Virus record (IMG/VR): IMGVR_UViG_3300044825_000382
Coordinates: 1 to 38,357 of that record
DNA from: a virus
Reading direction: 5' to 3' (one strand)
DNA: 38,357 nucleotides
The position numbers were made by a program, and so were the translations under genes. The notes under the pieces were generated by a model. That model did not search any database and was not told the DNA's origin. It saw only the letters and a program-made list of their open reading frames with translations. Positions 203 to 38,357 of this stretch are shown one piece after another. How positions within the stretch are numbered: the first letter of the stretch is position 1; every line of letters starts with the position of its first letter.

Positions 203-480
203 AGGGTTGTTTCCCATCCGCAGGCGGCGTATCCGGCGAGGTCTGTCCACGAGTCTTGTTTGTCTGGTTGCCAGGAGATGCGGGAGAGTTTGAGGAGGCA
301 CATGAGGGCGGCTACGTCGTGGGCGCGGATTGGGATGCCGAGGTAGGCTTCCCACATTCGGGCGGTGCGGGTGAAGTCTTGGGTGGGTTCGCCGTATTGG
401 TTGTTGCGATCTCCGTTGATGAGTTCTTCGGCTTGACGGAGCAGGTCGGTGCGTGGGGTGGTCATGATTCTGGTCATCAT
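199..480 (-). CDS. DUF6378-like phage protein
   Basis: A 93-aa protein. The pattern GDRNNQYG, then a DFTRTARMW stretch, then DVAALMCLLKLSRIS and a closing D-LAGYAA matches the small phage family DUF6378, whose members sit in replication or nucleotide-metabolism clusters; their biochemical role is not established. The start is taken at 480, where ATGATG overlaps the stop of the replication gene (477-479); 477 or 465 are alternatives. The upstream extension in frame is Arg/Pro-rich antisense sequence and is not part of the gene. Confidence 0.8.
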   Translation of the reverse strand: MMTRIMTTPRTDLLRQAEELINGDRNNQYGEPTQDFTRTARMWEAYLGIPIRAHDVAALMCLLKLSRISWQPDKQDSWTDLAGYAACGWETTL

Positions 481-1223
481 CCTGGGCGGCATTCGCAGGG
501 GTGGGCGTATTCGTAGCCTTTGTCGTCGGTGAAGTACAGCCATCCGTTGTTGCATTTGGAGCATGGTTCCCATCTGGGGATTTCGATCTCTGGGGTGTCG
601 GGTTCTTGGGGGTTCATGTCGTCTAACCATCTTTCGGCGTTGAGCCATGTAGCGGGGTGGGCGGTGTATTGGGGGTCTTCGGTTCGTCGCATCGCCGCAT
701 AGAGGTTGCAGCCTGCAACTATTTGTTCGGTGGTGGCTGTTTTGCGGGCTTTCTTCCAGGCTTTGAGTGCGGCTCCTTTGCCTACTTTGCGTGGGTAGAT
801 CGCCCAGAACTCTGCGAACCCATCATCGACAGATGATGAAGAGAGTGATGGTTCTAACTGACGGTTCTCTAATGATGGTTCAGCGCGGAAGCCCACTTCC
901 GCTGGCCCAGAAGAAGCCGACTTCCGCTGGCCCATAGGAAGTCCACTTCCGCTGGAAGCCAAGTTCAACTGGTACAGGTAGGTCGAATACTTGTGATCGT
1001 TGCGGCAACGACGGCTGGTAGAAATCAAACCGGCTTCTTCAAGACCGGTGACATGACTCGACACTTGACGTGCCGACATTCCGCATTTTTCTGCGATCCG
1101 TTTCATTCCCGGCCAACATTCGCCGTCGTCGTTCGCATGATCAGCCAACGCCAACAACACAAGTTTCGCACCGGATGACGTGGTGGTTTGTTCCCACGCC
1201 CAAGACATAGCCTTGATGCTCAT
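477..1223 (-). CDS. Replication initiator/helicase-loader-like protein with winged helix and zinc ribbon
   Basis: 248 aa in three parts. Residues about 18-70 form a winged helix (AKLVLLALADHANDDGECWP, then a recognition helix SARQVSSHVTGLEEAGL). A Ser/Gly/Pro linker spans about 88-135. A C-terminal domain begins FWAIYPRKVGKGAALKAWKK, typical of phage replication proteins of the lambda-O/DnaD-like type. A four-cysteine ribbon (C221, C224, C243, C245) ends the protein. GAAAGG precedes the ATG at 1223, and the ATG overlaps the stop of the gene upstream (ATGA). The linker DNA carries tandem iterons, so the protein probably binds inside its own gene. The initiator role is inferred from domains and iterons. 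Confidence 0.8.
   Translation of the reverse strand: MSIKAMSWAWEQTTTSSGAKLVLLALADHANDDGECWPGMKRIAEKCGMSARQVSSHVTGLEEAGLISTSRRCRNDHKYSTYLYQLNLASSGSGLPMGQRKSASSGPAEVGFRAEPSLENRQLEPSLSSSSVDDGFAEFWAIYPRKVGKGAALKAWKKARKTATTEQIVAGCNLYAAMRRTEDPQYTAHPATWLNAERWLDDMNPQEPDTPEIEIPRWEPCSKCNNGWLYFTDDKGYEYAHPCECRPG
821..955. repeat. Putative replication origin: iterons inside the initiator gene
   Basis: Three contiguous 25-bp units (955-931, 930-906, 905-881 on the minus strand) share CCAGCGGAAGT, then a G at position 13 and CTTC at 15-18. Because 25 is not a multiple of 3, the core is read in three frames (SGS, QRK, PAEV), so DNA rather than protein is conserved. Next to them the 9-mer GAACCRTCA occurs three times (881-873, 867-859, 854-846) at 13-14-bp steps, followed by a small dyad CATCAT/ATGATG at 821-838. 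In lambda the iterons likewise lie within gene O. Function is inferred. Confidence 0.65.
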
Positions 1224-1544: not shown

Positions 1545-3536
1545 ATGACAGGTAACGAACGATCAGGTCGCCGCGACGTACCGACCGAAGACAAAGTACG
1601 GTTCTGGGAAGCCCGCGCCGCAGGTATCTCGATCAAAGAAGCCTGCAAGATCGCCGGTATCCACTACAACACCGGCCAGAAGTGGGATGCGAAACGCCGC
1701 AAACTGGAAGTTGAGCAGAAAGTTGCCGACTTCGCGGAACGTACCGCCCTGTATAAAGACAATCGAAGCGGCAAAAGTCTTGAAGCCCTACGTTCCGACC
1801 TGGATCAGGCCGCAGACCTACCCCCCGTTATCCCGTATGCGCGTCTTTCCGAACGTGCGAAACGCGGATGGGACGACTTCGACTACTTCCGACGTGTCTA
1901 CCTGGGGCGTGTCCCGTCGCCGTGGCAGGTAGAAGCCGCATACAAAATCGTTCAGTACCTTGAATCGGAAGAAAAAGAGTTCCTAGTCCTCAACTGTCCC
2001 CCTGGTGCAGGCAAATCCACCTTGTTCCACGATGTCGCCGTGTGGTGCATCGTCCGAAACCGTGGCATCCGTGTCCTCTACGGGTCTATCTCGCAGACTT
2101 TGGCGAAGATGTACAGCCGCCGTATCCGCGAAACCCTCGAACGTCCTACCCGTCTGATCGTTGACCCTGAACTGGTCAAGAAAGGGTTGGCGGTAGACGC
2201 CGAAGGGTGCCTCGCGCAGGACTACGGCAGGTTCAAACCCACCGCATCCGGCTCCCTGTGGCGTGCCGAAGAGTTCATTGTTGAACAGGAAGGGTTCCGC
2301 ACCCTCGACAACAAGGAACCGACCGTCTCAGCGTACGGTATCGACTCCGAGTTCATCGGCCACCGCGCCGACCTCTGCCTTTTCGATGACGTGGCTTCCC
2401 CAGAAAACGCGAAAGAGTCGGTCGCACGCGACCGCCTGTTGGAACGATGGGATTCGATGGCCGAAGCCCGCTGCGACCCAGGTGGCCTGGTCGCTGTGAT
2501 CGGCCAGAGGCTCGGACCCGGCGACCTCTACGCCCATTGCTTGTCAAAAGTCACATACGAAGACGATGACGATGATGACGGCCAGGACATCACCGCCGAA
2601 GACCGGATGAAAGACCCAGTAAAAAAGTCGAAATACCACCTGATCACGTTCAAGGCGTACTACGAAGAACTTGATACTGGGAATCATTCTCGAAAAAAGA
2701 CTGCTGCCCCCTGGCCCAACGGTCCGCTCCTCGACCCGGTACGTCTCCCCTGGAAAGACCTGTCGTACATCCGCTACAACCAGCCCACCAAGTTCCGGGT
2801 CGTCTACCAGCAAGAAGACATCGACCTGGACTACCAGTTGGTTGAACGAGTCATGCTCACCGGAGGCACCGGCGTCGATGGCGTCCACTACGAAGGCTGC
2901 ATCGACCGTGACCGGCAACCCGGCTACATCGCCCGCAACCTCTCACAACCGTGGATCAGCATGATCTCCGTAGACCCGTCACCCGCAAACTTTTGGGGTG
3001 TGATCTGGACAATCGTCCAACCCGACATCGGTCTCTACCACGTCGTTGACCTGGAACGAGTCAAACTCACCGCCGAAGAACTGCTCGGCTACGACATGGC
3101 AACCGGCCAATACTGCGGCATCCTCGAAGAATGGGTACAACGAGCCGACGACATGGGCTACCCCGTCAGCCACATCGTTGTCGAAGTGAACGCCGCCCAA
3201 CGATTCCTGCTCGCCCACGACTTCGTGCGCCGCTGGCAAGCATCCCGCCAAGTTCTCGTCATCCCCCACACGACCAGCCGAAACAAACTGGACGAGAACC
3301 TCGGATTGGAAGCGTTGATCCCACCGGTTGTCCGATCCGGGTCGCTTCGTTTGCCCACCATGACCGGCAACTGGAAGACCCTCGCCCTCATTGAAGAACT
3401 GATCTCTTGGACCAAAGACAAAAAGAAAGGAACGGACTTGGCGATGAGTTTGTGGTTCACGCTTCTCCACGCACCCAAACTCACCGAACCCAAACTGCCA
3501 CCCCGAATGTGGCGTCCCTCATTCCTAGCAGGGTAA
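1545..3536 (+). CDS. terL: Terminase large subunit with N-terminal HTH
   Basis: 663 aa. DNA-packaging ATPase/nuclease: a Walker A-type loop (NCPPGAGKST, about residues 150-160), Walker B LCLFDDV (about 276-282), and a C-terminal RNase-H-like nuclease with SVDPSPANFWG (about 474), VVEVNAAQ (about 545) and a late Asp in DLAMSLW. Residues about 11-55 look like a helix-turn-helix (GISIKEACKIAGIHYNTGQK) of the kind found in small terminase subunits. No separate small-terminase gene is visible, so DNA recognition may be fused here. AACAGG precedes the ATG weakly. It opens the late plus-strand block. Confidence 0.93.
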   Translation: MTGNERSGRRDVPTEDKVRFWEARAAGISIKEACKIAGIHYNTGQKWDAKRRKLEVEQKVADFAERTALYKDNRSGKSLEALRSDLDQAADLPPVIPYARLSERAKRGWDDFDYFRRVYLGRVPSPWQVEAAYKIVQYLESEEKEFLVLNCPPGAGKSTLFHDVAVWCIVRNRGIRVLYGSISQTLAKMYSRRIRETLERPTRLIVDPELVKKGLAVDAEGCLAQDYGRFKPTASGSLWRAEEFIVEQEGFRTLDNKEPTVSAYGIDSEFIGHRADLCLFDDVASPENAKESVARDRLLERWDSMAEARCDPGGLVAVIGQRLGPGDLYAHCLSKVTYEDDDDDDGQDITAEDRMKDPVKKSKYHLITFKAYYEELDTGNHSRKKTAAPWPNGPLLDPVRLPWKDLSYIRYNQPTKFRVVYQQEDIDLDYQLVERVMLTGGTGVDGVHYEGCIDRDRQPGYIARNLSQPWISMISVDPSPANFWGVIWTIVQPDIGLYHVVDLERVKLTAEELLGYDMATGQYCGILEEWVQRADDMGYPVSHIVVEVNAAQRFLLAHDFVRRWQASRQVLVIPHTTSRNKLDENLGLEALIPPVVRSGSLRLPTMTGNWKTLALIEELISWTKDKKKGTDLAMSLWFTLLHAPKLTEPKLPPRMWRPSFLAG

Positions 3537-5739: not shown

Positions 5740-8700
5740 TGACACAGTTCGATCTGACACCTGAGCAAGAACTCAAAATCTACAACGAACTGATTGAAGA
5801 AGATCAGCGTCGTACAGCAGCACGCGCCAAGATGACGCCAGAGTTGGCGAACAACATCGGCACGTTGTACCGCAACAACCCGTACACCAATCCCGGTGCA
5901 ATCCTTGCAGCAGGACAAGCCGTGACCGCTGGCGCAATGTCAATGGATCAGGCTATGCCGCTCATGCTGACAGCCGCTAAAAACGATCTTGATTATCGTG
6001 TCCGGCAGCAGGCACCAGCCCCCGACAAACCGGAAAAGAAAGGCTGGTTCGAACGGAACATCGCATCAAAAGTTCGCACCGCCTCACGTTGGACGTTTGC
6101 TACCCTGAACTTTGTTCCGCAGGCGGTCACCAACATTGTGTCGCAGCCGTTTACCGAAAACCCGGAAGGGCAACGCGGTTTTTTCATTTCAACTGATCTC
6201 GGAACAATGCTTGCTAACGACAACGAAGCAGGCGACGGCTGGTTCATGGGTGGCAAAGCCATGCAACTTCAAGCCGAACGCGCACGCCGTTATCGAGGCG
6301 AAATCGACGGACACGCTTTTACGCTTGGACGAGGCGCAGCAAGCCTAATCACGCAACCCGGTTCACGCGAATACAACATCCTGTCCGGTCTCGTAGACGC
6401 AGCAGCCGCGATCACTATCCCGGCAGCCCCCGGATTCAAAGCCGCACAAGGAGTTGCCTCAGTTGGTTTGGGCAAAGCAGGGATGCGGACCCTGGCCGGT
6501 CTCACCGACTTCGCATCAGCCGACATTGTTCCAGCCAAAGTCGCGTCATTCCTTGATTCTCGTGGCGGCCAAAACATTATCAACCGCATCTCCAAAATCG
6601 ACAACATTGATGACGCCCTCCGCATTTTTGATGGCGTGCAAGACATGGGTTTTATCAACAAAATGGTGGAACTCACGGATGCAACGGAAATCCGCAACTA
6701 TCTCCAAGACACTCTTGCTAAGTCCGGTCCACGATCAGTCAACGACATCAACATTTCACGGCTGGATGATGTCAAAGCAAGCATGGTTGGACGATTCTCG
6801 CCAGTAGCACGCATGATGGAAAAGGTGCCTGGCCGCCATCTCATCATTCAGGGCGGCAACGCACGCGACATCGCACGCTCGGTCCGCAACATGAACCAGT
6901 ATTTGAAGACTGCCCGCGTGGACGCGACAACACGACGCGCATTAGTTCAGCAGTTGTCAAACGATCTTGTTGATGGTGGCGGCGATGTTTTCGCAACAGT
7001 CAACACAATCCAGAACACGATCCGCCAAACCCTCCGCGCTCAGGGTGTTCCCGATGAAGCGGTCTCGGAACTGATGAGCAGCATGAAGCAGTTCATGGAC
7101 GAAAAAGACACCTACGGTGTCGCCGCTTCGCTATCGCTCAGCAACCCTTCTGATTTCGCCCAAAAGATTCCGATGGCCGATGGCACATGGAAAATCGCTA
7201 ACAACTCCAAGCCTGGTTTGATGTCAGAAACGCTGCGGACAACCCAGTTGATTCTTCCCGATGTCCGCGAAACCCGCCGTATGACCTCAAAGATCGGCTG
7301 GATTTACGGCAAGAAGCAACCCATCCTTCGTGGCGACATGAAGAAGATTGGTGCGCTCCGCAACCAAATCGACCAGATTGACCAGACCGCAGACGACGAC
7401 ATCGCCAGACTCCGTGATTCTTTGGAAGAAGGCGCAGACGAACAGGCAATCAACGACCAGATCGCCATCATTGAGAACAACCGAGAAGCCCAGGTCATGC
7501 GTATCAAGGATGAGATCGCCGACATTGGTGAACCAAAGTTGGCAGACCCATCAAAGTACGGGCAACTGCGGATGCCGTTTGCTGCACTTGAAGCGTTCCA
7601 AAATCAGATTTGGCGTCCAGTTACCCTCATGACTGGTGGCTATGTGCTTCGAAACATGGCTGACTCTGCGTTCCGTTACACGATGCAGCCAGGCTTGAAG
7701 GGCGGGGTCTTCCACCCGATTCAATGGATCAACATCGCGTCCTTCCGCCGTTTCAAAGGAACACTTACCGGCGACGATTTTGCTAGGGCCGCAGACGCAT
7801 GGGCCGACGAAGCCGCGTCAGCGTATTTCGAGGCGGTTGGTCAAGGAATCCGTGAAGGATTTGACCCGATCTCAACTGCCGCCACCGGCTATCGGCACAA
7901 GGTCTGGGGACGTGCCAGGCGTGATTCTGGGGCCGATTACCGCAAGGGCATCATGGACAACATCGCATTGATGCGTGATGATGCCGTTAGCCGTCTGTAT
8001 GCCGCAGGGTACAGCGAAGACGACATTGTTGATCTTTTCTTTGTCAACAAGGGACGAGGACTTGAATCAGCACTTGAAGGTGTACGCGACTCGTCGGAAC
8101 AGTACGCACGCAAACTTCAACGTCTTCACTCAGACCGAGACGTTTCAGCCATCGGTGACCCTAACCTGAAAACGGTAGGCTCAGCCGATTACATTCAGGC
8201 AGACGGATCGTTTACCGACTTCAACAAGTTAGGTTTGCGTGAACACGCGACAGCCCAGGGCAAGCAGCGTCTAGACCTTATGGGTGGCCGCGACCAAACA
8301 ATCCGCGATGCCATCGCTACTGGCAAAATCAAAAACACACGTGGCGAACTCAAAGACATTTACGAATACCGCGAAATCAACGGTGTCCGCAAACCAGTCG
8401 GCTATACAAAAGACTTTGAAGACGCTATCGACCGCGTAATCCGCGAAGATCAAGCCCGGATCGCCCGTGGCGAACAACCCGTTTTGGCAGACCAGTACAA
8501 GTATCGCATTGAAATCCCGGTTCGTGCTGGTGGCGCGAAGGGTGAACTTGGGAATGTTCTCAAAGGTTGGGACAAGACGGTTGATTACTTCTTCTCATCC
8601 TTGTACCCGAAGCGTTCCGCCTACCTCATGCAAAGCCCGGCGTTCCGCCAGTATTACTACCAGCAGGTCGCCCGTCTTGTTGACGAACTGGATACCACAG

Positions 8701-16246: not shown

Positions 16247-17248
16247 GTGTCTGACCCCAGACTTGACCAACTAACTGATTTTTCGTTCGCGTTTGCGGGC
16301 GGCCCTCGGTTTTATGTTGGTTTAGAAACGCTGGTTCGTACAGCGACAGGTTCCGGTGCAGGCTCTGAGTCTGCGTCGGGACTTGTCGTTTCTCGTCGTA
16401 CAGCGACAGGTTCGGGTGTCGGTTCTGAATCTGCGACGAGGGTTATTGTTGCGGTTCGTACCGCATCGGGTTCTGGTGTCGGGTCGGAATCGGCGTCTGG
16501 TGGTTTGCTACGCGCCCGTACCGCATCAGGTTCTGGTGTCGGTTCTCAGTCGGCTGTTGGGGCGCGACTGGTTGTTCGTACCGCGACAGGTTCCGGGGTT
16601 GGTTCTCAGTCTGCGTCGGGTCGCCATGTTGCGCCTCGTACTGCCACGGGTTCGGGGGCAGGTGGCCAGTCGGCGGCTGGGTTGCACATCGCCCCTCGTA
16701 CCGCTACCGGTTCGGGTACTGGTTCAGAGTCGGCGTCAGGGGCGCGTCAAAACGCCCGTCAAGGCACAGGTACCGGTACGGGTAGTGGGACTGCGACCGG
16801 GTTGTATGTGGCGATTAGAACCGCTTCTGGGGCTGGTGTCGGTTCTCAGTCGGCTAGTCGAGTTGTGGTGGCGTTGCGTACCGCCACCGGTTCTGGGACG
16901 GGTGCAGGTTCGGCTGATGGGGTGCGTGTTGTTGGGCGTACCGCGTCGGGGAATGGGGCTGGTAGTGAGGCTGCGTCTTGGACGAAATCGTTGATCTTCC
17001 GGCCACCCGCTGACGACGATTTCCGGTGGGCGAACTATCGGGATCAGAACGCGGAGTCGGTGCTGTTCGGCAAACTGACTCAGGGTGTTCGCGCCCGCAA
17101 CATTTTCAAACTTACTTCTGGGGTGTACACCAATGTTGATCCGCGTGATCCGGCGTTGGTCAGTAAGGTCTATTATGGCGGCCATCAGTATTTCGTGGAT
17201 GACGCCGAGAAAGCCGAACTTGTAGCAGCAGGGTACACAGTCACATGA
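16247..17248 (+). CDS. Repeat protein: eleven 20-residue Gly/Ser units plus C-terminal domain
   Basis: 333 aa. Residues 31-250 are eleven exact-length 20-residue repeats of the type RTATGSGVGSESASG, each beginning with Arg. Strict period and small residues suggest a beta-solenoid or fibrous shaft. Residues 251-333 (FRPPADDDF ... GRNIFKLTSG in pattern ... VYYGGHQYFV) are homologous to the whole next protein. GTG at 16247 follows AGGGGGAAGG. Probably a virion surface or capsid decoration fibre; placement just after the capsid supports this. No enzyme motif. Confidence 0.8.
   Translation: MSDPRLDQLTDFSFAFAGGPRFYVGLETLVRTATGSGAGSESASGLVVSRRTATGSGVGSESATRVIVAVRTASGSGVGSESASGGLLRARTASGSGVGSQSAVGARLVVRTATGSGVGSQSASGRHVAPRTATGSGAGGQSAAGLHIAPRTATGSGTGSESASGARQNARQGTGTGTGSGTATGLYVAIRTASGAGVGSQSASRVVVALRTATGSGTGAGSADGVRVVGRTASGNGAGSEAASWTKSLIFRPPADDDFRWANYRDQNAESVLFGKLTQGVRARNIFKLTSGVYTNVDPRDPALVSKVYYGGHQYFVDDAEKAELVAAGYTVT
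16337..16996 (+). repeat. Tandem 60-bp coding repeat, 11 units
   Basis: Eleven 60-bp units, most starting CGTACCGC or CGTACAGC and containing GGTTCNGG. Units differ at synonymous and variable sites, with unit 8 the most diverged, so the array is old enough to have drifted while its length stayed exact. Confidence 0.85.
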
Positions 17249-32616: not shown

Positions 32617-32828
32617 CATTCGATGAATGGCTCAGGGTTGGCATGGATAACGGGTGGTGTGGCCCTGCCGTGTGTGCGATCCACGATGGACTGCCAACAA
32701 CCGCTGGCGAAGACGAAGCGTTAGAGATGGGCGACCCCTGTATCCATGTTGTCCGCTTGTATGACGAGATGACAACGAAGGAAATGGTCGAAGCGAATCA
32801 CGCGCCGTCCGTATGGAGGAAACGGTGA
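32613..32828 (+). CDS. Conserved small actinophage protein (NGWCGPAVC family)
   Basis: 71 aa: MTFDEWLRVGMDNGWCGPAV-CAIHDGLPTT, EDEALEMGDPCIHVVRLYDE, HAPSVWRKR. The NGWCGPAVC...HDG...EDE...GDPCIHV...SVWR signature recurs in many actinobacteriophages, typically near WhiB-like genes; function unknown. The three Cys plus His could bind metal. AGGAGG--AAATG site. Confidence 0.85.
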   Translation: MTFDEWLRVGMDNGWCGPAVCAIHDGLPTTAGEDEALEMGDPCIHVVRLYDEMTTKEMVEANHAPSVWRKR

Positions 32829-33271
32829 CGGCAGATCACGCTTGGCGTAAGCAAGCAAAGTGCCGGGGGCTGGACACCAACCTGTTCTTCGGTGAACGAG
32901 GCGAACATCAAACAATGGAAACCGCCATTGCCATCTGTAACGGGGCGGTGTTCCGCACAGACGACGAGACCGGCAAAACCTTCCGCGAAGAGAAAGACCC
33001 CTGCCCTGTCCGGCAGGACTGCTTAGAGTACGCACTCACCTTCGACTACAACGAAGACTTCGGGGTGTTCGGCGGAACGACACCAGGGTTTCGACGCAAG
33101 ATCAGGTCGGACCGTATGAGGACACGACCGCCTGAGCCTGTGTCGGTTGTGGTGTTGTGTCGCCGTTGCCGAGGGACCGGCCTGTATTCGACACCGACCG
33201 GGCGTATCTACTCGTGCCAATGCCGTGACGGGTTAGAGGTTCGCGTCAAAGCCCGTTCGTCAGTTGTCTAA
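32825..33271 (+). CDS. whiB: WhiB-family regulator with cluster-loop insertion and C-terminal zinc motif
   Basis: 148 aa. WhiB hallmarks: HAWRKQAKC13RG, AIAIC38, C60PVRQDC66LEYAL, and a G[V/I]-GG turn GVFGGTTPGFRRK with a basic DNA-binding tail. Canonical proteins have C-x2-C between ligands 2 and 3; here 21 residues separate C38 and C60. The C-terminus adds LCRRCRGTGLYS ... SCQC, a CxxCxGxG/CxC zinc-type motif. Phage WhiB proteins modulate host transcription. GTG 32825 has GGAGG 5 bases upstream and overlaps the previous stop; 32813 is an alternative. Confidence 0.85.
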   Translation: MTADHAWRKQAKCRGLDTNLFFGERGEHQTMETAIAICNGAVFRTDDETGKTFREEKDPCPVRQDCLEYALTFDYNEDFGVFGGTTPGFRRKIRSDRMRTRPPEPVSVVVLCRRCRGTGLYSTPTGRIYSCQCRDGLEVRVKARSSVV

Positions 33272-35269: not shown

Positions 35270-35521
35270 TCACACCCCACTAGCAGGGGGAACAGCCCCG
35301 TCACCATCGAACACCTGTTCGACGAACACCTGTTCGCCCCGAGGAACATAACACCCCGAACACAACACCATGTCATGATCAGGACGCCACCAACCCAACC
35401 CAAGCACCGCTTTCGACGGCGCACTCGATACCGCGATCACCTGACGACACGACTCACACGCGACGAGCGTACCGCTACGACACGCACGCCGAACCGCCTG
35501 CCTAAACCCTGACTCTTCCAT
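35270..35521 (-). CDS. Small zinc-ribbon protein, last gene of operon A
   Basis: 83 aa. C-x2-C in ACESCRQVIAVSSAPSKAVL and C-x2-C in LCSGCYVPRGEQVF, 30 residues apart, form a likely zinc ribbon; basic N-terminus (FRQAVRRACRSGT). ATG 35521 overlaps the previous stop by one base (TAATG). Its stop codon lies inside the upstream part of the operon B promoter cassette. Confidence 0.7.
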   Translation of the reverse strand: MEESGFRQAVRRACRSGTLVACESCRQVIAVSSAPSKAVLGLGWWRPDHDMVLCSGCYVPRGEQVFVEQVFDGDGAVPPASGV

Positions 35522-38034: not shown

Positions 38035-38268
38035 TTACTGGCCGGTAACCGGTGGGTCGTTTGGCCTATTGCGGTATTTCATGCGGACTGTTCGGTTGTA
38101 TGCGAGTACGGCGTCGGTGAACTGTTCGGATGGTTGGAAGTTGTCGTGGCGTGAGAGGTCGAGGATGGCTTGGGCGAGTAGGTGGCAGGTTTGTTCCCAG
38201 CGTTTGCTGTCTTGGCGGGCTTTGATGATGGCGTCGAGCATTTGGTCGAAGTTGTCGTTATTGGCCAC
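38035..38268 (-). CDS. Hypothetical protein, last gene of the replication operon
   Basis: 77 aa: MANNDNFDQMLDAIIKARQD, SKRWEQTCHLLAQAILDLSR, FTDAVLAYNRTVRMKYRNRP. Helical, with mixed charge. GTG 38268 (equal to position 36 on the circle) overlaps the end of the 58-aa coiled-coil gene by 11 bases, linking the operon across the window ends. Similar small helical proteins of unknown role are common in actinophages. Confidence 0.7.
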   Translation of the reverse strand: MANNDNFDQMLDAIIKARQDSKRWEQTCHLLAQAILDLSRHDNFQPSEQFTDAVLAYNRTVRMKYRNRPNDPPVTGQ

Positions 38269-38357
38269 GTGATGCCCATTCCCAGTAGTCGCGTTCTTTG
38301 TAGGTGTCGCGTAGTCGTGTTTGTAGTTCGGTGATTTCGGTTCGGAGTCGTTCGATT
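38233..38357. repeat. Terminal direct repeat, right copy
   Basis: Identical to 1-125. After merging, the replication operon runs uninterrupted from 1450 through 1 to 38035 on the minus strand. Confidence 0.9.

Follow-up and report, generated by a model that had tools for sequence, protein, structure and literature searches.

A probable theta-type replication origin within the linker-coding part of a phage initiator gene, and a candidate array of oriented short sites beside its iterons

Origins located inside the gene of their own initiator are a known kind, exemplified by lambda, P22 and pSK41. In lambda, ori lies within gene O and contains 19-bp iterons, which are inverted repeats bound by O dimers; the adjacent A+T-rich region is opened (PMC5043065, PMC7466680). 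The strand-opening mechanism was termed an open question in a review (PMC5043065). Gene 18 of the Salmonella phages P22 and L contains iterons that are particular to each phage (PMC8022706). In the case of pSK41, the origin is placed within rep over a dispensable linker, and the winged-helix N-terminal part of the protein binds the boxes. The hybrid plasmid pPR9, with a swapped-in PF13730 N-terminal part and origin region, works autonomously (PMC5703833). Because such origins are already known, the copy described below is, taken alone, one more case.

Here, we analyzed a stretch of viral DNA of 38,357 nucleotides (IMG/VR record IMGVR_UViG_3300044825_000382), called the window throughout. In all likelihood, it carries a theta-type phage origin embedded in the linker-coding part of its own initiator gene, and this estimate includes the mechanism proposed further below. 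The gene and the domains of its product are as follows:

477-1223, minus strand: replication initiator gene, 248 aa (open reading frame with Pfam and PHROG matches)
951-1223, minus strand: winged-helix DNA-binding domain, aa 1-91 (AlphaFold2 pLDDT mostly >92; HTH_36 at aa 17-67)
831-950, minus strand: disordered linker, aa 92-131 (pLDDT <50 for aa 93-107, 109-113, 115-117 and 120-130)
609-821, minus strand: small, helical C-terminal domain, aa 135-205, of the FWxxYPRK...WLNxxRW type (pLDDT mostly >92)

The HTH_36 match (PF13730) was obtained with an E-value of 7.5e-17 and 61.3 bits (curated cut-off 25), and the protein matched phrog_270, replication initiation protein, over aa 1-208 with an E-value of 2e-49. 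As judged from sequence, two independent libraries agree in identifying the product as a PF13730/phrog_270-type phage replication initiator. The C-terminal domain also matched phrog_9327, primosomal protein, and by analogy it probably contacts a helicase, a loader or a primase. The structure was modelled with AlphaFold2 from an alignment of 20 sequences. The best Foldseek rows for the model were the replication initiators 5kbj, 4pql and 4pt7 (E 6e-3 to 8e-3); the Foldseek and VIA-align rows covered the winged helix alone and are generic matches. A PDB sequence search with the initiator returned no relatives. The RepA_N domain (PF06970) was absent from the Pfam matches up to an E-value of 1, and the likeness to RepA_N is confined to the winged helix, whose fold showed a weak resemblance with Foldseek.

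The initiator gene is followed by further minus-strand open reading frames and points away from the terminase gene, which starts at 1545. No helicase-loader gene was recognized beside it; the downstream open reading frames, 199-648 (DUF6378) and 26-355, gave no match to a known loader. The operon probably runs on beyond the start of the window. In L003, a relative whose initiator shows 72% protein identity, the counterparts of the window ends (1-205 and 38065-38357) are contiguous at 6640-7135. The ends of the record are thus arbitrary, the genome being a circle or a circular permutation, and the leftward group of genes probably extends across the end of the window. On the right, the window contains genes for a RecE-like exonuclease, an annealing protein, an SSB, a RusA-like protein and endonuclease VII. 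A gene for a WhiB-like regulator was found at 32813-33271 (plus strand). As WhiB proteins are characteristic of Actinobacteria and of the phages that infect them, the gene points to an actinobacterial host. The large terminase subunit (1545-3536, plus strand) also matches a small-subunit family, phrog_4102, with its N-terminus (aa 4-66), and may be a fused protein. Two other repeats were noted: a 60-bp tandem repeat at 16336-16653 (5.3 copies, 69% matches), which overlaps an open reading frame, and a perfect 15-bp tandem repeat, CGAACACCTGTTCGA, at 35308-35336, which contains the palindrome CGAACA-CC-TGTTCG and is a candidate regulator operator. A tRNA search of the window found none.

The initial annotation had described three tandem 25-bp units with an identical 11-base core in this gene. 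They are present at 882-955 on the minus strand, and with them a weaker copy was found:

932-955, minus strand: iteron 1, imperfect 24-bp palindrome CCAGCGGAAGTGGACTTCCTATGG (9/12 dyad pairs)
907-930, minus strand: iteron 2, imperfect 24-bp palindrome CCAGCGGAAGTCGGCTTCTTCTGG (9/12 dyad pairs)
882-905, minus strand: iteron 3, imperfect palindrome CCAGCGGAAGTGGGCTTCCGCGCT (7/12 dyad pairs)
955-979, plus strand: degenerate, doubtful fourth iteron-like copy, 17 bp past the outermost unit (68% identity to the reference unit)

The window contains just three exact copies of the 11-mer core, CCAGCGGAAGT, all on the minus strand (895-905, 920-930 and 945-955). When one mismatch was allowed, no further copy appeared in the window, 0.64 being expected, and none of 100 shuffles reached three. 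Repeat finders reported the same 25-nt family with spacings of 25 and 25 and the degenerate copy at +17; a similar fourth copy is also present in another relative, L004. The cores start at gene nucleotides 268, 293 and 318, that is in frames 1, 2 and 0, so that the claim of the core being read in all three frames holds. It had also been argued that protein selection cannot explain the repeat. This was borne out, as a 25-bp repeat of this strength was found in 0/2000 codon-synonymous shuffles: the self-match of the gene at 25 bp is 38/43, and the maximum over these protein-keeping shuffles was 28.

Each 25-bp unit proved to be an imperfect 24-bp palindrome plus one base, a feature overlooked in the earlier description. 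The palindrome consensus, derived from the window and its relative, is CCAGCGGAAGT-nn-ACTTCCGCTGG. Across the gene, a 24-base window has on average 2.9 dyad pairs, and iterons 1 and 2 are the two windows with the highest dyad score. The summed dyad pairs of the three units were matched by 0/200 synonymous shuffles in both the window and L003. With at most three mismatches, the 24-bp palindrome pattern has three matches in the window, all at the iterons, with 0.01 expected. In L003, the other half-site of the middle unit is the better-kept one, a pattern that recognition of both half-sites by a dimer would predict.

Three GAACCRTCA 9-mers had been reported next to these units. They were found as exact matches in steps of 13 and 14 bp, occupying two reading frames, and the iterons and 9-mers together lie in a stretch with its own constraint and composition:

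873-881, minus strand: array site 1, GAACCATCA, abutting iteron 3
859-867, minus strand: array site 2, GAACCGTCA
846-854, minus strand: array site 3, GAACCATCA
819-881, no strand assigned: candidate unwinding region over the array (A+T 56% vs 44% genome mean, 97.5th percentile)
804-998, minus strand: DNA-constrained segment relative to L003 (44/50 conserved residues with an identical codon vs 38/73 elsewhere)

In terms of the protein, aa 90-114 are encoded by the iterons and about aa 115-127 by the 9-mers. According to the predicted structure, they fill the disordered linker almost exactly, in agreement with the position between winged helix and C-terminal domain that had been assigned to the repeats. 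The same stretch is constrained at the DNA level. In the comparison with L003, 81-94% of conserved residues in aa 90-136 have an identical codon and 46% in aa 1-75 (Fisher P = 3e-5 for the excess in aa 76-140 over the rest of the gene). Silent-site conservation thus peaks in the disordered linker, above the folded domains. The repeats are selected at the DNA level, and such a constraint on a stretch with no predicted fold is what an embedded origin predicts. The composition of 819-881 is raised for this genome and is not strongly A+T-rich. A cumulative GC-skew extreme near 900, put forward earlier as a check on the origin, was not seen: the mean-corrected extremes are at 15.8 and 33.6 kb, with nothing at 0.9 kb, and in a small genome with strand-biased genes GC skew is weak evidence either way.

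Iterons of other sequence had been anticipated at the same place in relatives, and these were found both in named phages and in a blind survey. The three 25-bp palindromic units are kept in L003 and L004. Significant repeats were detected in the Arthrobacter phages LittleTokyo, Coral and Bumble (22-bp units), EBPR podovirus 2 (14-bp units) and Aeromonas phage AsXd-1 (21-24 bp units); the tandem repeat in the linkers of Vibrio D65 and Galaxy was not significant in the synonymous-shuffle test. For the repeat-blind survey, relatives were collected with the winged-helix part alone, which gave 80 loci that formed, together with the window, 42 clusters. One gene from each was tested for tandem repeats against synonymous shuffles. 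Significant repeats, mostly of 21-25 bp and starting at about aa 86-115, were present in 26/42 genes, the window having the highest z score, and 16/42 gave no significant tandem repeat in this test. The place of the repeats within the linker is constant across initiators with different C-terminal domains. As a positive control we used the proven lambda origin, which scored 24/40 (window, 35/40) and missed P<0.05, since 15/200 shuffles were as good; the test is therefore conservative. Initiator identity, selection at the DNA level and differing iterons in relatives together support the lambda-type origin within the initiator gene that the initial annotation had proposed.

The 9-mers behaved differently from the iterons across relatives. 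In the window gene itself, three GAACCRTC were reached by 11/2000 synonymous shuffles, which alone is weak or suggestive evidence; across relatives it becomes decisive. When multi-frame k-mers were counted in the blind set with no motif given, AGAACC and AACCAGTC(A) emerged. In the 41 blind genes, 54 array sites are on the coding strand and none on the other strand (5.0 expected, at most 11 in 200 shuffles), and all but one lie at aa 103-153. A large group, including Vibrio D65, Aeromonas AsXd-1 and their kin, has GAACCAGTCA, read as RTSH or EPV, in place of the GAACCRTCA of the window, which is read as EPS or NRQ. Spacings range from 10 to 17 bp, many of them not multiples of three, and all three frames are used, which excludes a purely peptide cause. 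Linker peptides such as GTVIEPSENRQ represent a single DNA motif in its three reading frames. Three related initiators (L022, L038 and L093) have long EPSDYEPSDF arrays and two GAACCRTC clusters per gene, and their in-frame arrays are longer than those of the other initiators.

Viral contigs were also scanned pattern-first, with no protein information used, and at least about 120 loci were obtained per motif. Among the matches listed, the open reading frame over the motif was an HTH_36-type initiator in 85/119 for triple GAACCRTC and in 112/119 for double GAACCAGTCA (GAACC[AT]GTCA), the arrays being at the same place and always in one orientation. A complete scan with a permuted motif as control gave 16 loci, 0/16 of them in an initiator. 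In a PHROG search of 80 of the scan open reading frames, phrog_270, 391, 1032 and 8540 each matched 51-53/80. A set of 143 non-redundant initiators was compared pairwise; of the 1435 pairs whose winged helices are similar and whose C-terminal domains are unrelated, 96% have the same array class (51% overall). The array thus belongs with the winged helix and iteron module, and the C-terminal domains are exchanged behind it; the converse pairs, with a dissimilar winged helix and a similar C-terminal domain (n=9), are too few to inform. The earlier placing of the 9-mers beside the iterons stands, and they are to be regarded as a separate, widely conserved element instead of a part of the phage-specific iterons. 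By sequence comparison, the GAACC array appears common to very many distantly related phages, and no earlier description was found. Searches of open-licence papers for the GAACC motif returned unrelated topics alone, and for HTH_36 origins nothing beyond pPR9; with this coverage, absence is weak evidence.

By analogy with described initiators, dimers of the protein would bind the three palindromic 25-bp units (882-955) through the winged helix. The nucleoprotein complex would then strain and open the adjoining, relatively A+T-rich 819-881 with its three oriented GAACCRTCA sites. These sites may provide a conserved second contact, the most likely partner being the initiator on the opened strand or the adjacent duplex, and the C-terminal domain would recruit a helicase or loader. 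The protein would tolerate the insert because the linker is disordered. Recognition of short repeats on the opened strand is known for plasmid and chromosome initiators, for instance RctB at 5'-(G/A)ATCA (PMC10797057); the likeness of this site to RTCA may be taken as a lead alone.

Several other readings of the repeats were weighed. They could be operators, bound by the initiator or another phage regulator for the control of transcription and not for the start of replication. Palindromic units are typical of repressor operators too, and the model of the winged helix is similar to many regulators (CRP, MarR, Fur). The repeats, however, lie about 270-340 nt within the gene, away from a promoter; no sigma-70-like promoter was found in a search of positions 1-2000, and the palindrome does not recur even in the divergent intergenic region 1224-1544. 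Together with a linker position that is kept whatever the C-terminal domain, this makes control of transcription an improbable explanation. A signal in the mRNA, with palindrome hairpins controlling translation or stability, is less probable still. Compared with shuffles, the RNA of the coding strand shows slightly better folding (z -1.8), but 8/200 shuffles fold equally well, there is no Rfam family match, and the GAACC array is non-palindromic yet equally strongly conserved. Just as little can be said for a need for linker peptides of the E-P-S type, or a recent tandem duplication, with the DNA repeat as a by-product. Linkers of this kind are indeed of low complexity, and GAACCRTC is read in frame 0 as EPS at 98/159 sites, above the other frames. 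Against this, the same DNA core yields unrelated peptides in three frames, array spacings of 10, 11, 13, 14 and 17 break the frame, both repeats are lost in synonymous shuffles, and silent sites are conserved in the linker.

The last alternative concerns the array only and is compatible with the embedded origin itself. A host factor might bind the GAACC sites, or they might be a hot spot for recombination between N- and C-terminal modules; in either case, they would stand outside the opening reaction. We regard this as rather unlikely, though with much more in its favor than the three readings above. The array stands at the boundary past which the C-terminal domains diverge, and its class is constant in nearly all of the pairs with exchanged domains. 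On the other hand, the strict orientation (54:0) and the fixed place beside the iterons fit a functional origin element, and arrays persist between close relatives with no module exchange, as in the window and L003. It is only as a tentative proposal, though one somewhat more plausible than a role outside opening, that we put forward the GAACCRTCA / GAACC[AT]GTCA array as a previously undescribed, family-wide oriented origin element of HTH_36 initiators in phages of distant hosts, possibly serving as a signal for strand opening or single-strand capture.

The iterons of such an embedded origin can be read by a protein-preserving test, which would make the origins of many uncultured phages predictable. 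The oriented array of short sites, common to phages that differ in iterons and C-terminal domains, is a concrete candidate for what is conserved in origin opening across the HTH_36 initiator family. If this is true, phage origins would share a sequence code.

The locus resembles lambda in that the origin, a probable one here, lies in the middle of the initiator gene, with iterons between the segments that encode the DNA-binding N-terminal domain and the C-terminal domain (PMC5043065; annotated iterons). In both, the iterons are inverted repeats with the opening region, here a candidate, beside them (PMC5043065). The iteron sequence is unrelated, the spacing is a regular 25 bp here and 20-24 in lambda, and the lambda repeats score weaker in the same synonymous-shuffle test. 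The GAACC array is absent from lambda and P22; where it stands here, lambda has an A+T-rich tract. P22 likewise has its own iterons within the initiator gene, a rep_origin being annotated within its gene 18, but the repeats are different and it has its own DnaB-like gene 12. As in pSK41-type RepA_N plasmids, the probable origin is situated in the initiator gene over the linker, and pPR9 shares the PF13730 N-terminal part, whereas the initiator described here has no RepA_N Pfam match and a different C-terminal domain. Compared with the Arthrobacter phages Galaxy, LittleTokyo, Coral and their kin, which have 22-bp iterons of different sequence and array steps of 11-13 bp, the window shares a homologous initiator (35-40% identity), repeats at the same place and the GAACCRTC array, which in those phages has 3-4 sites.
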